Of a stretch of DNA of 64,000 nucleotides, positions 2,899 to 42,055 are shown piece after piece. Location: contig NZ_CP061721.1 in NCBI RefSeq assembly GCF_014764445.1, positions 558,001-622,000 on the forward strand, in the 5' to 3' direction. Within the stretch, counting starts at the first letter, position 1. Every line of letters starts with the position of its first letter. The notes beneath the pieces are model-generated. The model was not told the origin of the DNA, searched no databases, and was given only the letters and a program-made list of their open reading frames with translations. A program made the position numbers and the translations under genes. The DNA is from Pseudarthrobacter sp. BIM B-2242 (GTDB lineage: Bacteria > Actinomycetota > Actinomycetes > Actinomycetales > Micrococcaceae).

Positions 2899-2920
2899 AA
2901 CGCTCTCTCACTTAATGTGG
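2899..2920. repeat. Left outer arm of nested palindromic repeat, copy 1 (split by IS)
   Basis: AACGCTCTCTCACTTAATG plus TGG is the left outer arm of the ~105-bp repeat found intact at 9489, 14468, 17895 and 41951. Here the expected spacer and inner hairpin do not follow; they appear about 1.5 kb downstream at 4445-4523, with an IS3-family element in between. Confidence 0.8.
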
Positions 2921-2981
2921 CTTCCCTCTACGTCAGGCTGGTTGTGAGTCAGCCAATGATTGATGAGGAGCAGGAGCAGAC

Positions 2982-3416
2982 ATGACTGTTGGTGCGCGAG
3001 GTATTAGCCGCGATGAGATTCGGGAGTTGGTGCATCAGTATTACGTGCAGCCGTACGGGACGAGGAAGGAATGGCTTGCCTCCCAGCCAGTGACTGAGTG
3101 GACGTTCCGGCGCTGGCGGAGGATGGTGCAAGAGGGTGACCTCGACCGGAATCTGATTCCACGAGAGCATGGGAACATGGCCCGCACGAATGGCGAGTGG
3201 TCCGCGTTTGAGAAAGCGCGCGCCAAAGAGATCGCTGAACACCAGTCCGAAGTCGAACAGCTCAAGGGCCGTATTCGTGATCTTGAAGGCACGAATACAG
3301 CCTTGGGAAAAGCTATCGGGCTCTTGCACGAGTTGAGCGTGCCAGAGCCCGATACGGCCCGGACGAAAGATCCGAAAGGTTCATCGAAGCCGAGAACATC
3401 CTCGTCCGGCAACTGA
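2982..3416 (+). CDS. IS3-family transposase OrfA
   Basis: 144 aa. The N-terminal half (about residues 8-60) looks like a helix-turn-helix (W-T-F-R-R-W-R-R segment). Residues about 75-115 form a leucine-zipper-like coiled coil (EVEQLKGRIRDLEGTNTAL), as in IS3 OrfA proteins, which bind the IS ends and dimerise. The ATG at 2982 has AGGAG 7 nt upstream. A -1 frameshift at G GGA AAA (3305-3311) would join it to OrfB and give a fused transposase of about 478 aa; without slipping, translation stops at 3416. Confidence 0.85.
   Translation: MTVGARGISRDEIRELVHQYYVQPYGTRKEWLASQPVTEWTFRRWRRMVQEGDLDRNLIPREHGNMARTNGEWSAFEKARAKEIAEHQSEVEQLKGRIRDLEGTNTALGKAIGLLHELSVPEPDTARTKDPKGSSKPRTSSSGN
3305..3311 (+). 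other. Candidate -1 programmed frameshift heptamer (G GGA AAA)
   Basis: In the OrfA frame the codons are GGA AAA preceded by G, matching the X XXY YYZ slippery pattern. Slipping back one base enters the OrfB frame, which is open from here to 4417. IS3-family elements are known to make their transposase by -1 frameshifting. No stimulatory pseudoknot was worked out. Confidence 0.55.
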
Positions 3417-4417
3417 CAACGCTCACCGGCTCGCAACGGCAAGCCCTCGAGTTCGCCGGCGTATCCCGCTCGACCTGGCACTACCGGCAGAATCCCCGCG
3501 CAGGGGTCCAGGACCCGCTCGGACAGTCTGAACGCGCTTACCAGTCACGTGTCAGCGCCAATGACCGCGACCGGATCTGCGAATACATCCTGGTGGGCTG
3601 GGCCAACCAGGTCTCCGTTGATCATTCCTACGCGGCTGCCTGGGACGCGGGGGTGATGCTCGCTTCCCGCCGCACATGGTGGCGGGTCGCGGCGCAGATC
3701 GAGGACCAGATGCTGCGCCCCGCGATCCCGACCAGGACAGGGAAGAACCGGCCCCCGCGGGAGAAGCCCGTGGTGATGGCCACGGGCCCGGGGCAGGTCT
3801 GGTCCTGGGACATCACCGATCTGTATTCACCCTGGCGGGGACGGTCGTTCAAGGCCTACTCGGTCCTTGATATCTACTCCCGCCGCATGGTGGCCTGGCG
3901 GGTCGAGGAACGGGAGGCGGACCATCTCGCTGTGGAGATGTTCGAAACCGCGATCGCCCGGTATGGCGCACCGCGCATAGTTCACGCCGACTCGGGGCCG
4001 GCGATGCGATCAAACCTGCTCCGCGAAGCTCTCACCGGCCACGGCGTGGAGCTCTCCCACAACCGGCCCTACGTCTCGAACGACAACCCCTTCTCCGAGT
4101 CCGGGTTCCGGACCATGAAGTACAGGCCCGGCTACCCCCGTGTGTTCAAAGAAGTCGAGGCCGCCCGGGCCTACCTTGCCGACTACGTGCCCTGGTATAA
4201 CACCCAACACAAACACTCGGGCATCGCACTGTTCTCGCCCGCCGAAGTCCATGACGGCTCATGGAAGGAAGTTTGGAAAACCCGGGACCAGGCACTACAG
4301 CGCTACTACAACAAACACCCCGAACGATTCCACCAGCGCCCAACGACACCAGCCCCAGCCAGCCATGCCGGAATCAACCTCCCGACAACAAAAACACCCA
4401 CACAACAAACCCAATGA
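3311..4417 (+). CDS. IS3-family transposase OrfB (DDE integrase domain)
   Basis: The frame is open from before 3311 to 4417 and has no convincing start of its own, consistent with translation by frameshift from OrfA; an internal ATG lies at 3593. After a short HTH-like region (SRSTWHY), the rve/DDE core is visible: first Asp in WSWDITDLYS, second Asp in IVHADSGPA and the Glu in NPFSESGFRTMKYRP, followed by the family's YNTQHKHSGI and SPAEVH motifs. The DDE triad is complete, so the enzyme should be active if produced. Confidence 0.85.
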   Translation, partial: SYRALARVERARARYGPDERSERFIEAENILVRQLTTLTGSQRQALEFAGVSRSTWHYRQNPRAGVQDPLGQSERAYQSRVSANDRDRICEYILVGWANQVSVDHSYAAAWDAGVMLASRRTWWRVAAQIEDQMLRPAIPTRTGKNRPPREKPVVMATGPGQVWSWDITDLYSPWRGRSFKAYSVLDIYSRRMVAWRVEEREADHLAVEMFETAIARYGAPRIVHADSGPAMRSNLLREALTGHGVELSHNRPYVSNDNPFSESGFRTMKYRPGYPRVFKEVEAARAYLADYVPWYNTQHKHSGIALFSPAEVHDGSWKEVWKTRDQALQRYYNKHPERFHQRPTTPAPASHAGINLPTTKTPTQQTQ

Positions 4418-4444
4418 CTCCACACAGCTTGACAACCTGCGCTT

Positions 4445-4523
4445 AACCGCCGACGCTCTCTCACTTTTTTGAAGAAAGTGAGAGAGCGTCGGCGGTTTTC
4501 CTGCATTAAGTGAGAGAGCGTCC
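4445..4523. repeat. Nested palindromic repeat copy 1, inner hairpin and right outer arm
   Basis: The inner palindrome spans 4445-4497, with arms AACCGCCGACGCTCTCTCAC / mirrored and a TTTTTTGAAGAAA centre. The right outer arm CCTGCATTAAGTGAGAGAGC plus GTCC follows at 4500-4523. The left outer arm is at 2899-2920 on the other side of the IS. It lies between the IS and the 3' end of malate synthase (convergent). Confidence 0.8.
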
Positions 4524-9488: not shown

Positions 9489-9595
9489 CGGACGCTCTCT
9501 CACTTAATGCGGGTTTTACCGGGACGCTCTCTCACTTTCTTCAAGAAAGTGAGAGAGCGTCCTTGGTTTTTCCACATTAAGTGAGAGAGCGTCCG
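9489..9595. repeat. Nested palindromic repeat, copy 2
   Basis: Outer arms (GGACGCTCTCTCACTTAATG type) at the two ends enclose a perfect inner hairpin at 9522-9562, with 20-nt arms GGACGCTCTCTCACTTTCTT around a single-base centre. The element fills the gap between the convergent regulator (stop 9481) and TAXI gene (stop at 9598) almost exactly, so it may act as a bidirectional terminator. Confidence 0.9.
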
Positions 9596-14395: not shown

Positions 14396-14467
14396 GGATC
14401 CGCGGGGGCGCCTCCGGTGACGTACGACGGCGGGCGCCCACCCGCCGTCGTCCGCCCACCACCCAGC

Positions 14468-14571
14468 AACGCTCTCTCAGTTAATGCGGGTTTTCCCGGA
14501 ACGCTCTCTCACTTTCTTGAGGAAAGTGAGAGAGCGTTCCGGATTTTCCTGCGTTAAGTGAGAGAGCGTCC
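14468..14571. repeat. Nested palindromic repeat, copy 3
   Basis: Outer arms AACGCTCTCTCAGTTAATGC (left) and GCGTTAAGTGAGAGAGCGTC (right) enclose an inner hairpin at 14498-14540 whose GGAACGCTCTCTCACTTTC arm mirrors its partner. Lies between the permease stop (14395) and the pyruvate oxidase start (14671), both on the plus strand. Confidence 0.9.
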
Positions 14572-16419: not shown

Positions 16420-16566
16420 CGAAAGGCCGACCGGGCGTATCACTCCCCGCGCGAGATCAAAACGAGTGCAAAGCGTGACCCTGCCGGCATCGTCTCGGGC
16501 CGCCGTCGCTGTTTGACTGGGAGGAGGCGGATTCCCGCCCTTCGTGCGCCGCAGGAGGCAACTGAC

Positions 16567-17865
16567 ATGTTTCGTTTACAGCGGATGGTGGCGCTCGGTG
16601 CGGTGTTGGCTGTGGCTGGGTGCGCGGCGCCTGCCCCTGCCCCGGCGCCGCCGGAACTCCTCACGGCCGACGGCGTCGAACGGGTTTCGGTGGACCGCAC
16701 GGCGTATGCCGCCGAGCTGCGTTCCTTCCGGGCTTCCGCCCTCATCCTCGGTGAGGCCCTGCTGACCGACGGCGGCGACGGTTCCGGCGGGAACGTGGTG
16801 TCCTCGCCCGGGAGCCTCCTGATTGCCCTCGCCATGCTTCGGGCGGGTGCATCCGGCGGGACAGCGGCGGAGATGGACAGTGTTCTGAGGTTTCCCGCGG
16901 AAAAAGGCGATGAGGCCATGAACTCTGTTCTCCGCTCGCTCGAAACCTTCGACGGCGACCCCGGCGCTGTGGACGAAGAGAATCCGCCGCGCAAACCGGT
17001 TATGCATGCCGCCAACGGGCTGTTTGTGGACAAGGATGTGCCCACTGGGGAGTTCTTCCTCGCCACACTGGCCCGGCACTATGGAGCCGGAGTGTATCCC
17101 GTGGATTTCAGCGATGAGGGAACAACGAAGCCTGCCATTGACGCCTGGGTGAACCGGAACACCGGCGGCCGGGTCAAGGAAGCGCCCGCAAAATACGATC
17201 CGGACAACACGTTCAGCCTGCTCAATTCCCTGTACTTCGCCGCGGCCTGGAGTGCACCGTTCGACCCTAACGACACCTCAGACCTGCCCTTCAGCACAGC
17301 CGCGGGCGAGGAAATCGAGGCACCGGCGATGCATAACGAACTCACGATGAAGTATGCGGAAGGGGCCGGCTGGAAGGGTGTGGACCTTCCCTACGCCGAC
17401 GGCTTTGTCATGCGTTTGGTTCTGCCCGATGACATGACCGATCCTGCAGCCGGCCCTGCTTCTGCGGCATTCGGTGCGGACAAACTGACGGAAATTGCCG
17501 ACATCTTTGATGCCGCCGGGCCCGTGTCTGTGCGGATCAAGCTACCCCGCTGGGACCACAAGAGCAGCTTTGACCTGCGCAAAGTCTTCGAGTCACTGGG
17601 CCTGAAGAAGATGCTCGCCACCACGGAGGACTTCAACAACATTCAGCCGCAGATGATGATCACCCAGGCTGCCCAGGCCGCCAACATCACGGTGGCCGAA
17701 AAGGGCACCATCGCCGCCGCCGTAACGCAGATCAACGGAGAGGCCACCAGCGCCCCGCCGCAGCCCGAACGGACCATCGATTTCGACCGGCCGTTCCACT
17801 ACCAGATCGTGCACGCTGAAACCGGACTGCCGCTGTTCATGGGAACGGTGGCCGACCCGCGTTAG
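16567..17865 (+). CDS. Serpin-family lipoprotein (serine protease inhibitor)
   Basis: 432 aa. The signal peptide ends in a lipobox (VLAVAGCA, Cys near residue 19), followed by a Pro/Ala-rich linker and a full serpin fold: NVVSSPGSLLIALAML, NGLFVDKD, NSLYFAAAWSAPF and, near the C-terminus, the reactive-loop hinge EKGTIAAAVT. The small-residue hinge is that of inhibitory serpins, which trap a protease by loop insertion. ATG 16567 has AGGAGG 8 nt upstream; a longer frame from 16513 has no signal peptide logic. Outward-facing location suggests defence against external proteases. Target protease unknown. Confidence 0.9.
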   Translation: MFRLQRMVALGAVLAVAGCAAPAPAPAPPELLTADGVERVSVDRTAYAAELRSFRASALILGEALLTDGGDGSGGNVVSSPGSLLIALAMLRAGASGGTAAEMDSVLRFPAEKGDEAMNSVLRSLETFDGDPGAVDEENPPRKPVMHAANGLFVDKDVPTGEFFLATLARHYGAGVYPVDFSDEGTTKPAIDAWVNRNTGGRVKEAPAKYDPDNTFSLLNSLYFAAAWSAPFDPNDTSDLPFSTAAGEEIEAPAMHNELTMKYAEGAGWKGVDLPYADGFVMRLVLPDDMTDPAAGPASAAFGADKLTEIADIFDAAGPVSVRIKLPRWDHKSSFDLRKVFESLGLKKMLATTEDFNNIQPQMMITQAAQAANITVAEKGTIAAAVTQINGEATSAPPQPERTIDFDRPFHYQIVHAETGLPLFMGTVADPR

Positions 17866-17894: not shown

Positions 17895-17997
17895 GACGCT
17901 CTCTCACTTAATGCAGGAAAATCGACAACGCTCTCTCACTTTCTTGAAGAAAGTGAGAGAGGGTTGCCGGAAAACCCGCATTAAGTGAGAGAGCGTC
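17895..17997. repeat. Nested palindromic repeat, copy 4
   Basis: Outer arms GACGCTCTCTCACTTAATGC and GCATTAAGTGAGAGAGCGTC enclose the inner hairpin 17926-17966, which has one mismatch (GAGGG where the mirror predicts GAGCG). Sits between the convergent serpin (stop 17865) and kinase (stop at 18031) genes. Confidence 0.9.
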
Positions 17998-29308: not shown

Positions 29309-29914
29309 ATGGCCATTGAACTTGAGGAACTGCTGGTTAAGGATGCGGCCGCATGGCGGGCCTGGCTGGAAGAGCACCACGCGGACAGCCCCGGCGTGTG
29401 GCTTGTCCTCCACAAGAAGGGCGGCAATGTCACGGAACTGGACTACGACGCCGCGCTTGATGAGGCGTTGTGTTTCGGGTGGATCGATGGACAGGTCAAT
29501 AAGCGCGACGCGGAGACCTACAGCCAGCGCATGACCCGCCGCACCCCGAAGAGCCCCTGGTCAGCCCGGAATGTGGGGCACGTTGCCCGGCTGGAAGCCG
29601 CGGGCAGGATGACCGACGCCGGGCGGGCCGCCGTCGAAAGCGCCAAGGCGGACGGCCGCTGGGAGATCGCTTATGGCGGACAGGCAACCGCAGAGGTTCC
29701 GCCCGATCTGGCGGCGGCGATCGCAGCCGTCCCGGCGGCGCAGGCGATGTTCGATGTCCTCACATCCGTCAACCGATACGCCCTGATTTACAGGACGATT
29801 TCGGTGAAGCAGGCGGCCACGCGCGAACGGAAAATCGCAGGTTTTGTGGAGATGCTGGCCCGTGGCGAGACACCGTTCCCGCAGAAGCGGAAGCCCGCCG
29901 CCCCGCCCAACTAA
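29309..29914 (+). CDS. YdeI/OmdA family protein
   Basis: 201 aa. Family features: AWRAWLEEHHADSPGVWLVLHKKG, LCFGWIDGQVNKRD, RRTPKSPWSARNV and the C-terminal RTISVKQAATRERKIAGFVEML (separate segments). This family is annotated as bacteriocin-protection or OmpD-associated, but its biochemical role is unknown. ATG 29309 starts just after AGGG; an upstream ATG at 29267 is less likely. Its stop codon lies inside the long inverted repeat 29907-29970. Confidence 0.8.
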   Translation: MAIELEELLVKDAAAWRAWLEEHHADSPGVWLVLHKKGGNVTELDYDAALDEALCFGWIDGQVNKRDAETYSQRMTRRTPKSPWSARNVGHVARLEAAGRMTDAGRAAVESAKADGRWEIAYGGQATAEVPPDLAAAIAAVPAAQAMFDVLTSVNRYALIYRTISVKQAATRERKIAGFVEMLARGETPFPQKRKPAAPPN

Positions 29915-29970
29915 GTAGCGCTAACTGTCGTTTTGAGGGCTCAAAACGACAGTTGGCGCTACTTAGTTGG
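29907..29970. repeat. 64-bp near-perfect inverted repeat between convergent genes
   Basis: Two 31-nt arms (29907-29937 and 29940-29970) pair with a single mismatch around a 2-nt centre; the arms contain CCAACTAAGTAGCG and ACTGTCGTTTTGAG. The repeat includes the YdeI stop codon and ends 2 nt before the fbpC stop. Could be a bidirectional terminator, or a member of a dispersed palindrome family; the unusual arm length favours the latter. Confidence 0.8.
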
Positions 29971-29972
29971 GA

Positions 29973-41950: not shown

Positions 41951-42055
41951 GGACGCTCTCTCACTTGATGTGGGTTTTTCCCGGTCGCTCTCTCACTTTC
42001 TTAGAGAAAGTGAGAGAGCGACTGCCGAAAAGGCGCATTAAGTGAGAGAGCGTCC
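41951..42055. repeat. Nested palindromic repeat, copy 5
   Basis: Outer arms GGACGCTCTCTCACTTGATG (left) and GCATTAAGTGAGAGAGCGTC plus C (right) enclose the inner hairpin 41984-42022 (18-nt arms GTCGCTCTCTCACTTTCT, loop TAG). The inner stem carries GTCG/CGAC in place of the GACG/CGTC of other copies; both sides changed together, so pairing is kept. Confidence 0.9.

Follow-up and report, generated by a model that had tools for sequence, protein, structure and literature searches.

The 64,000-nucleotide stretch of Pseudarthrobacter sp. BIM B-2242 analysed here (contig NZ_CP061721.1, positions 558,001 to 622,000; henceforth referred to as the window) contains at positions 9489–9595 a nested palindrome of ~105 bp belonging to a family with five copies in the window and a larger total in the genome. 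The locus raises the question of what such elements are and which enzyme, if any, is responsible for them. They are read here, with a probability of about 0.72, as gene-less ("solo") copies of the brackets of a nuclease gene, that is, of a nuclease that is either selfish or domesticated and has recognition palindromes of its own.

Results

Copies and architecture of the repeat

The core of the repeat, CTCTCTCACTT, was matched 20 times in the window at no more than one mismatch, against an expectation of 0.61 and a maximum of 2 in shuffled sequence (n = 100). The positions of the five elements described in an earlier note on this DNA were all borne out by sequence read-out and repeat finding. 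Its nested palindrome plan was also confirmed, with 9489–9595 folding into a single nested hairpin (folding z of −16.2 as DNA and −17.2 as RNA). Core positions indicate a basic unit of 32 bp, typically GGACGCTCTCTCACTTAATGCGGGTTTTCCGG, which is repeated head-to-tail at a 32-bp period and faces a mirror-image array. Each side has 1 to 5 units, and regular copies show a 20-bp step between the innermost opposed cores; degenerate copies and half arrays are common.

The genome, referred to as G000 (4.78 Mb in 2 contigs, with a chromosome of 4.36 Mb), contains 144 exact cores, 73 on one strand and 71 on the other, and the reversed-pattern control gave 0. A covariance model built from four window copies produced 56 genome matches corresponding to 28 distinct sites. 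The genome-wide search that the earlier note had proposed thus returned numerous copies and not only the few in the window. No named repeat family was found either, by Rfam models (0 matches in the window at the gathering cut-off) or in the literature searched.

Placement at gene ends was surveyed with a rough gene caller in stretches covering the first 100 of the 144 cores and ten further model hits, with halves of split elements counted separately. Of 53 clusters, 21 were convergent, 28 tandem, 2 divergent and 2 unclassified, compared with 22 convergent, 100 tandem and 38 divergent element-free junctions in the same stretches. The proposal that all elements lie at gene 3' ends and none between divergent genes therefore stands within the window and nearly so in the surveyed part of the genome, where 2 of the 51 classified clusters are divergent.

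A 15-mer, GACGCTCTCTCACTT, was present in 42 of the 91 genus genomes (this one included) and in 0 of 58 genomes from other families of the order; its copy number varies from 0 to 83. Such elements occupy corresponding junctions in Pseudarthrobacter sulfonivorans RIT817 (L098), and other relatives show the same architecture with other sequences, for example GACGCTCCCTCACGTCGGGCGGGTTTTCGGGT in L092. Differently spelled facing arrays were also seen at gene 3' ends in L086, L092, L095, L096 and L099; in L096 the repeats flank a thiamine pyrophosphate (TPP) enzyme gene on both sides.

An AbiEi-DUF559 gene enclosed by the repeat

In one facing-array pair (L050) the array halves do not meet and instead enclose a gene. 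This unit lies outside the window, at about 136.27–137.44 kb of G000:C1, and consists of two 32-bp units, the gene, and two to three units in mirror orientation. The product of 323 residues has an N-terminal AbiEi-fold domain, detected by an AbiEi profile match, followed by a DUF559 nuclease domain scoring 22.1 bits, just above the Pfam cut-off of 20.6. The DUF559 domain resembles Vsr and the homing endonuclease I-Bth0305I, whose nuclease domain gave the top Z in a second fold comparison (12.2 over 96 residues). Residues D244, Y256, G258, H261 and D270 of the nuclease domain are invariant in 45 homologs. The neighbouring genes look like housekeeping genes, namely a pucR-type regulator and purU (these names, and fhs and ino1 below, were assigned by eye from translations). 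No AbiEii-like toxin gene was noticed among these neighbours, which were named by eye with no AbiEii profile search made.

Three further homologs in G000 are flanked by palindromes of different sequences, which are clear for two of the three and least regular for L169. One of these three sequences defines a second repeat family, and a solo palindrome of that family lies in the window at 29906–29971, where ACTGTCGTTTTGA occurs at contig positions 587924 and 587941, and the second-family core was found at nine further places in G000. Motif ACTGYCGTTTTGA gave 16 matches in G000 (13 of the second family and 3 of a third); its reversed control gave 0 in G000 and scattered single matches elsewhere in the genus.

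The 9-mer TGTGGATAA was found no more than 150 bp upstream of 87 of 93 genus homologs, compared with 4 of 26 homologs outside the genus and none of 150 control genes. It is the reverse of the DnaA box TTATCCACA, and could also be part of a promoter. In L166, for instance, it lies about 33 bp before the gene match.

Pairing of gene and repeat

Matching of the two flanks of each gene was scored as the best ungapped match between the upstream flank and the reverse complement of the downstream flank. The sample comprised 92 of 93 genus loci (L185 was dropped for a short flank); the 93 consisted of 4 from the same genome, 29 best listed from other genomes and 60 from further down among the matches listed, with fragments skipped. 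Scores of 15 or more were obtained for 71 of the 92 homologs, compared with 14 of the 300 control genes and 28 of the 276 mismatched upstream/downstream pairs; for scores of 20 or more the counts were 59, 11 and 12, respectively. The mismatched-pair control shows that arms match far more within a locus than between loci. Control genes were taken from a rough gene caller, and their rate is not purely chance since some carry repeats of the CTCTCTCACTT family.

The earlier note had suggested looking for a RAYT-like (REP-associated tyrosine transposase) or other transposase that tracks with copy number. A protein that does so was found, and it is the AbiEi-DUF559 nuclease, unrelated to RAYT. The comparison covered 84 of the 91 genus genomes; G000, G009, G019, G027, G038, G041 and G088 were dropped for having no usable identity in one of the two sets compared (excluding G000, the 68% complete G027 has 11 copies and the other five have 0). 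All 15 genomes with an ortholog of at least 75% identity contain 12 to 69 repeat copies, compared with three of the 69 genomes without one that contain at least 10 (G028, 23; G030, 21; G042, 20). In G030 and G042 the 68–69% ortholog is itself flanked by CTCTCTCAC units. Identities for G062 (75%), G022 (72%) and G075 (69%) come from partial matches; without G062 the result for the first group holds in all 14 genomes. The Spearman correlation of copy number was 0.50 with DUF559 identity and 0.17 with fhs identity, with a partial correlation of 0.49 (permutation p 2e-4), as computed across species with relatedness handled by fhs identity and no tree correction. Among genomes with fhs identity of at least 89%, the 11 with the ortholog have 19–66 copies and the 17 without it have 0–7.

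Another bracket core, ACGCSCCATCACTT, which derives from G070 and G035, was found 33 times in G035, 15 in G026, 14 each in G070 and G003, 7 in G009, 6 in G001, 5 in G056 and 1 to 3 times in twelve further genomes, with 77 of 96 genomes having none. The reversed control gave 4 matches across the 96 genomes.

Sampling of the order, four genomes of the genus included, gave homologs in 86 of 119 genomes. Outside the genus, matched arms were observed at 18 of the 26 best loci (one per genome), compared with 4 of 150 controls. The bracket core of G168 occurs 20 times in G168 (no more than 2 mismatches, 11 places) and once in nine other genomes, with a control of 0; among the seven paired places that differ from the query, four show an identical change in the two arms and the other three do not. 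Homologs were also present in five plasmid records; four of these homologs are bracketed, one of the four being from Tsukamurella, a member of another order. A single phage record (MT837503.1, 4962–5972) contains a homolog, at 31% identity.

The pairing itself is well supported. Gene and repeat are specific partners that diverge together, and many of the related genes sampled in Micrococcales are paired in this way.

Two junctions with and without the gene

The fhs-ino1 junction was compared in 20 genomes and G000. The gene lies between CTCTCTCACTT arrays in G089, G016, G042, G058 and G020, and a 64–66% homolog is present in G086, where cores occur only to the right, and in G011 and G017, which have no such cores. 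Gene-less arrays were found in G076, G013, G073, G068 and G040, two of which (G013 and G073) contain fragments of a MerR gene. In G000, G015 (contig ends), G063 and G021 the arrays are accompanied by DUF2306 and MerR genes. Another DUF559 type (56%) occupies the junction in G004 (one core) and G057 (no core). Nothing was present in G151, and the stretch from G028 was too short.

The pucR-purU junction was compared in 10 genomes with a close purU and in G000, six of the 16 genomes searched having only distant purU paralogs. The gene lies between arrays in G000, G015, G076, G021 and G040. A gene-less solo palindrome is present in G081, G058 and G020, whose gene adjoins fhs instead. The junction is rearranged in G068, and neither arrays nor pucR were found in G017 and G011. 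Both sites thus alternate across genomes between a palindrome with the gene and one without it, at the level of arrays and not to one base. Among the genomes examined at both junctions, the CTCTCTCACTT-bracketed gene was never present at both.

Sequence change within elements

Mirrored positions co-vary in the 19 complete elements, with 61 cells changed on both sides against a shuffled mean of 42.2. They are paired at 85.6%, compared with 36–51% after sliding by 1–3 columns. Pairing in the surround of the inner hairpin was 0.939 within a copy and 0.884 between copies, and just outside it 0.624 and 0.444. Over the whole spacer the values were 0.585 and 0.580, which locates the co-variation around the inner hairpin. 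Mirrored change of this kind fits a process in which one arm is copied from its partner, and it equally fits selection that maintains the palindrome; either is compatible with an enzyme acting on hairpins.

The solo elements lack a target duplication (in the same 19 elements the best direct repeat averaged 1.21, compared with 1.29 in shuffled pairs). REP elements are likewise not known to have one; miniature inverted-repeat transposable elements (MITEs) do. The 10 bases preceding the 19 elements are 46% C and the 10 following are 53% G, frequently close behind a stop codon. Target preference and a worn outer arm are candidate sources of the bias.

Elements of the window and their surroundings

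Features of the window are collected in Table 1. Repeat finding returned the elements as family D1. The first element, given in the earlier note as 2899–2920 with 4445–4523, is one element split by a 1518-bp insertion sequence (IS) that is flanked by the 3-bp duplication CTT. An identical 1518-bp copy (L082, 857–2374; duplication TTC) interrupts a further element in this genome. A different rve-type IS adjoins half elements in L075, and L062 and L080 appear to contain a third, on the evidence of open reading frame (ORF) and terminal sequence alone. IS insertion may favour these palindromes.

Table 1 Repeat elements and associated features of the window.
Feature	Position	Strand	Evidence
Element 1, left piece (one outer unit), cut by IS	2899–2923		sequence; repeat family D2; IS boundary at 2924
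IS, 1518 bp, rve (integrase core) transposase, in the spacer of element 1; outsider to the repeat family	2924–4441	+	Pfam rve on ORF 3593–4417
Element 1, right piece (central hairpin and right array)	4442–4523		sequence; repeat finding; core matches
Complete solo element (>><<), convergent genes either side	9489–9595		repeat finding; core matches; covariance model; gene calls; folding
Complete solo element (>><<), tandem genes either side	14468–14571		sequence; covariance model; gene calls
Complete solo element (>><<), convergent genes either side	17895–17997		sequence; covariance model; gene calls
Second-family solo palindrome, near-perfect, between convergent genes	29906–29971		repeat family I14; same as bracket of DUF559 paralog G000:C1:1109815-1110738 (L167)
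Complete solo element (>><<), tandem genes either side	41951–42055		sequence; covariance model; gene calls

A separate GC-rich hairpin at 14425–14451, 3' of a major facilitator superfamily (MFS) gene, precedes the element at 14468–14571. Counterparts of this hairpin follow the same MFS gene in L098, which has a degenerate copy of the element at the junction, in L094, where no element was seen, and in L086. The hairpin is perhaps the real terminator at that junction. A bacterial serpin gene (16513–17865; Pfam Serpin, E 1.4e-71) lies between the TPP enzyme and thiD genes, and no serpin match was obtained at the corresponding junction of L098.

Discussion

The observations above are best explained by a nuclease gene that resides within its own palindrome and has left gene-less copies of it around the genome. 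Cleavage and movement are inferred. The AbiEi-like domain would bind the 32-bp unit, and the nuclease domain would nick or cut the extruded palindrome. Repair or replication of the broken hairpin could then spread solo palindromes, and the gene may leave or re-enter palindromes through repair, comparable to a homing endonuclease gene that splits its own site. The ACGCSCCATCACTT counts of G026 and G003 do not fit this explanation unless these copies are relics.

The strongest competitor, itself unlikely, is that the repeats are bidirectional terminators or stabilisers of mRNA 3' ends spread by ordinary recombination, with the nuclease gene a passenger that shares the terminator type. Placement at gene 3' ends, enrichment at convergent junctions, the very high stability of the hairpins and, for two of the three elements scanned, a T-rich tail following the inner stem all agree with a terminator. 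The T tail, however, is present on the + strand only and the third element has none, and at one junction the separate hairpin at 14425–14451 precedes the element and is kept in relatives in which the element is degenerate or absent. Moreover, a terminator does not predict that copy number follows the identity of one protein or that bracket sequences differ between nuclease paralogs.

Still less probable is that the repeats are operators in the regulon of an AbiEi-like autorepressor whose nuclease domain is secondary. AbiEi proteins bind inverted repeats and repress their own promoters, and the N-terminal AbiEi fold would suit such a role. An operator is not expected at 3' ends with so few sites between divergent genes, nor in arrays on both sides of the gene, and the invariance of the nuclease residues also speaks against this reading.

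Classical REP/BIME/REPIN (REP, repetitive extragenic palindromic) elements moved by RAYT, a Y1 HUH transposase, were the comparison offered in the earlier note. That likeness is real as far as the repeats are concerned, which are dispersed, extragenic, palindromic, many-copy and placed at gene 3' ends. The expected RAYT was not found, with PF01797 giving 0 matches in G000 whereas 5 of 14 control genomes match, and the bracketed gene encodes an unrelated nuclease-like protein. Movement by RAYT is thus very improbable and is refuted for this genome, barring a RAYT too diverged for the PF01797 model. The least probable reading takes the elements as MITEs derived from a DDE transposon, perhaps the IS in element 1. 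IS copies with rve transposases do lie inside elements, but both copies of the 1518-bp IS were inserted there with their own 3-bp duplications, and the solo elements lack any.

Several known systems resemble parts of the nuclease-palindrome partnership. Like REP/BIME/REPIN elements with RAYT (TnpA_REP), it comprises dispersed extragenic palindromes in tens of copies, lineage-specific in sequence, and an enzyme gene bracketed by the same repeat; unlike them, it has 32-bp tandem units in facing arrays and an AbiEi-DUF559 protein, with no Y1 HUH transposase found in this genome. The nuclease domain, with its conserved residues, has the fold of the EDxHD/Vsr-type homing endonuclease I-Bth0305I, and the gene sits mid-palindrome in arrays that also exist without it. 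At the loci examined, however, neither an intron nor a host gene is interrupted, the gene-less sites are dispersed in many copies, and an AbiEi-fold domain precedes the putative nuclease. The AbiEi antitoxin domain is shared with AbiE type IV toxin-antitoxin (abortive infection) systems, but here it is fused to a nuclease domain and the neighbours look like housekeeping genes. IS1397 of E. coli is an IS3-type insertion sequence that targets REP palindromes; the rve-type ISs seen here likewise sit in the spacers of palindromic elements, as users of the palindromes and not as their movers.

No description of the repeat family or of the repeat-enzyme pairing was found in the literature searched, whose coverage leaves out most subscription papers. 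Text matches to CTCTCTCACTT appeared unrelated by title and abstract start among the matches listed, and literature on Arthrobacter and repetitive extragenic palindromic sequences had nothing on such Arthrobacter repeats by title and abstract start, except possibly PMC12306157. That paper gives repeat counts for Arthrobacter livingstonensis, without sequences, and the term RAYT is absent from its main text. Since the RAYT test failed and decisive tests of homing need the protein, the system is considered new as a repeat-enzyme partnership, built from known protein folds.

A wider generalization has somewhat better than an even chance of being correct: that solitary AbiEi-Vsr nuclease genes form a large class in actinobacteria, in which every gene resides in a palindrome of its own and seeds copies of it genome-wide, as a repeat-making selfish system with an origin independent of REP/RAYT. 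In such a class the gene would move by homing-like cut-and-repair, and in the Arthrobacter group the upstream DnaA-box-like sequence may couple the system to replication.

Proteins of the AbiEi-DUF559 shape are common yet carry only a DUF name, and cognate palindromes give the family a testable job. The pairing explains one source of intergenic palindromes in high-GC Gram-positive bacteria. It also represents a second, non-homologous arrangement of the RAYT/REP kind, so that two independent inventions can be set side by side for their general logic of hairpins, 3' ends and a single enzyme for each repeat. Finally, it might be possible to read the recognition sequence of such a sequence-specific nuclease from its own flanks, which would make it a useful tool for studies of specificity.
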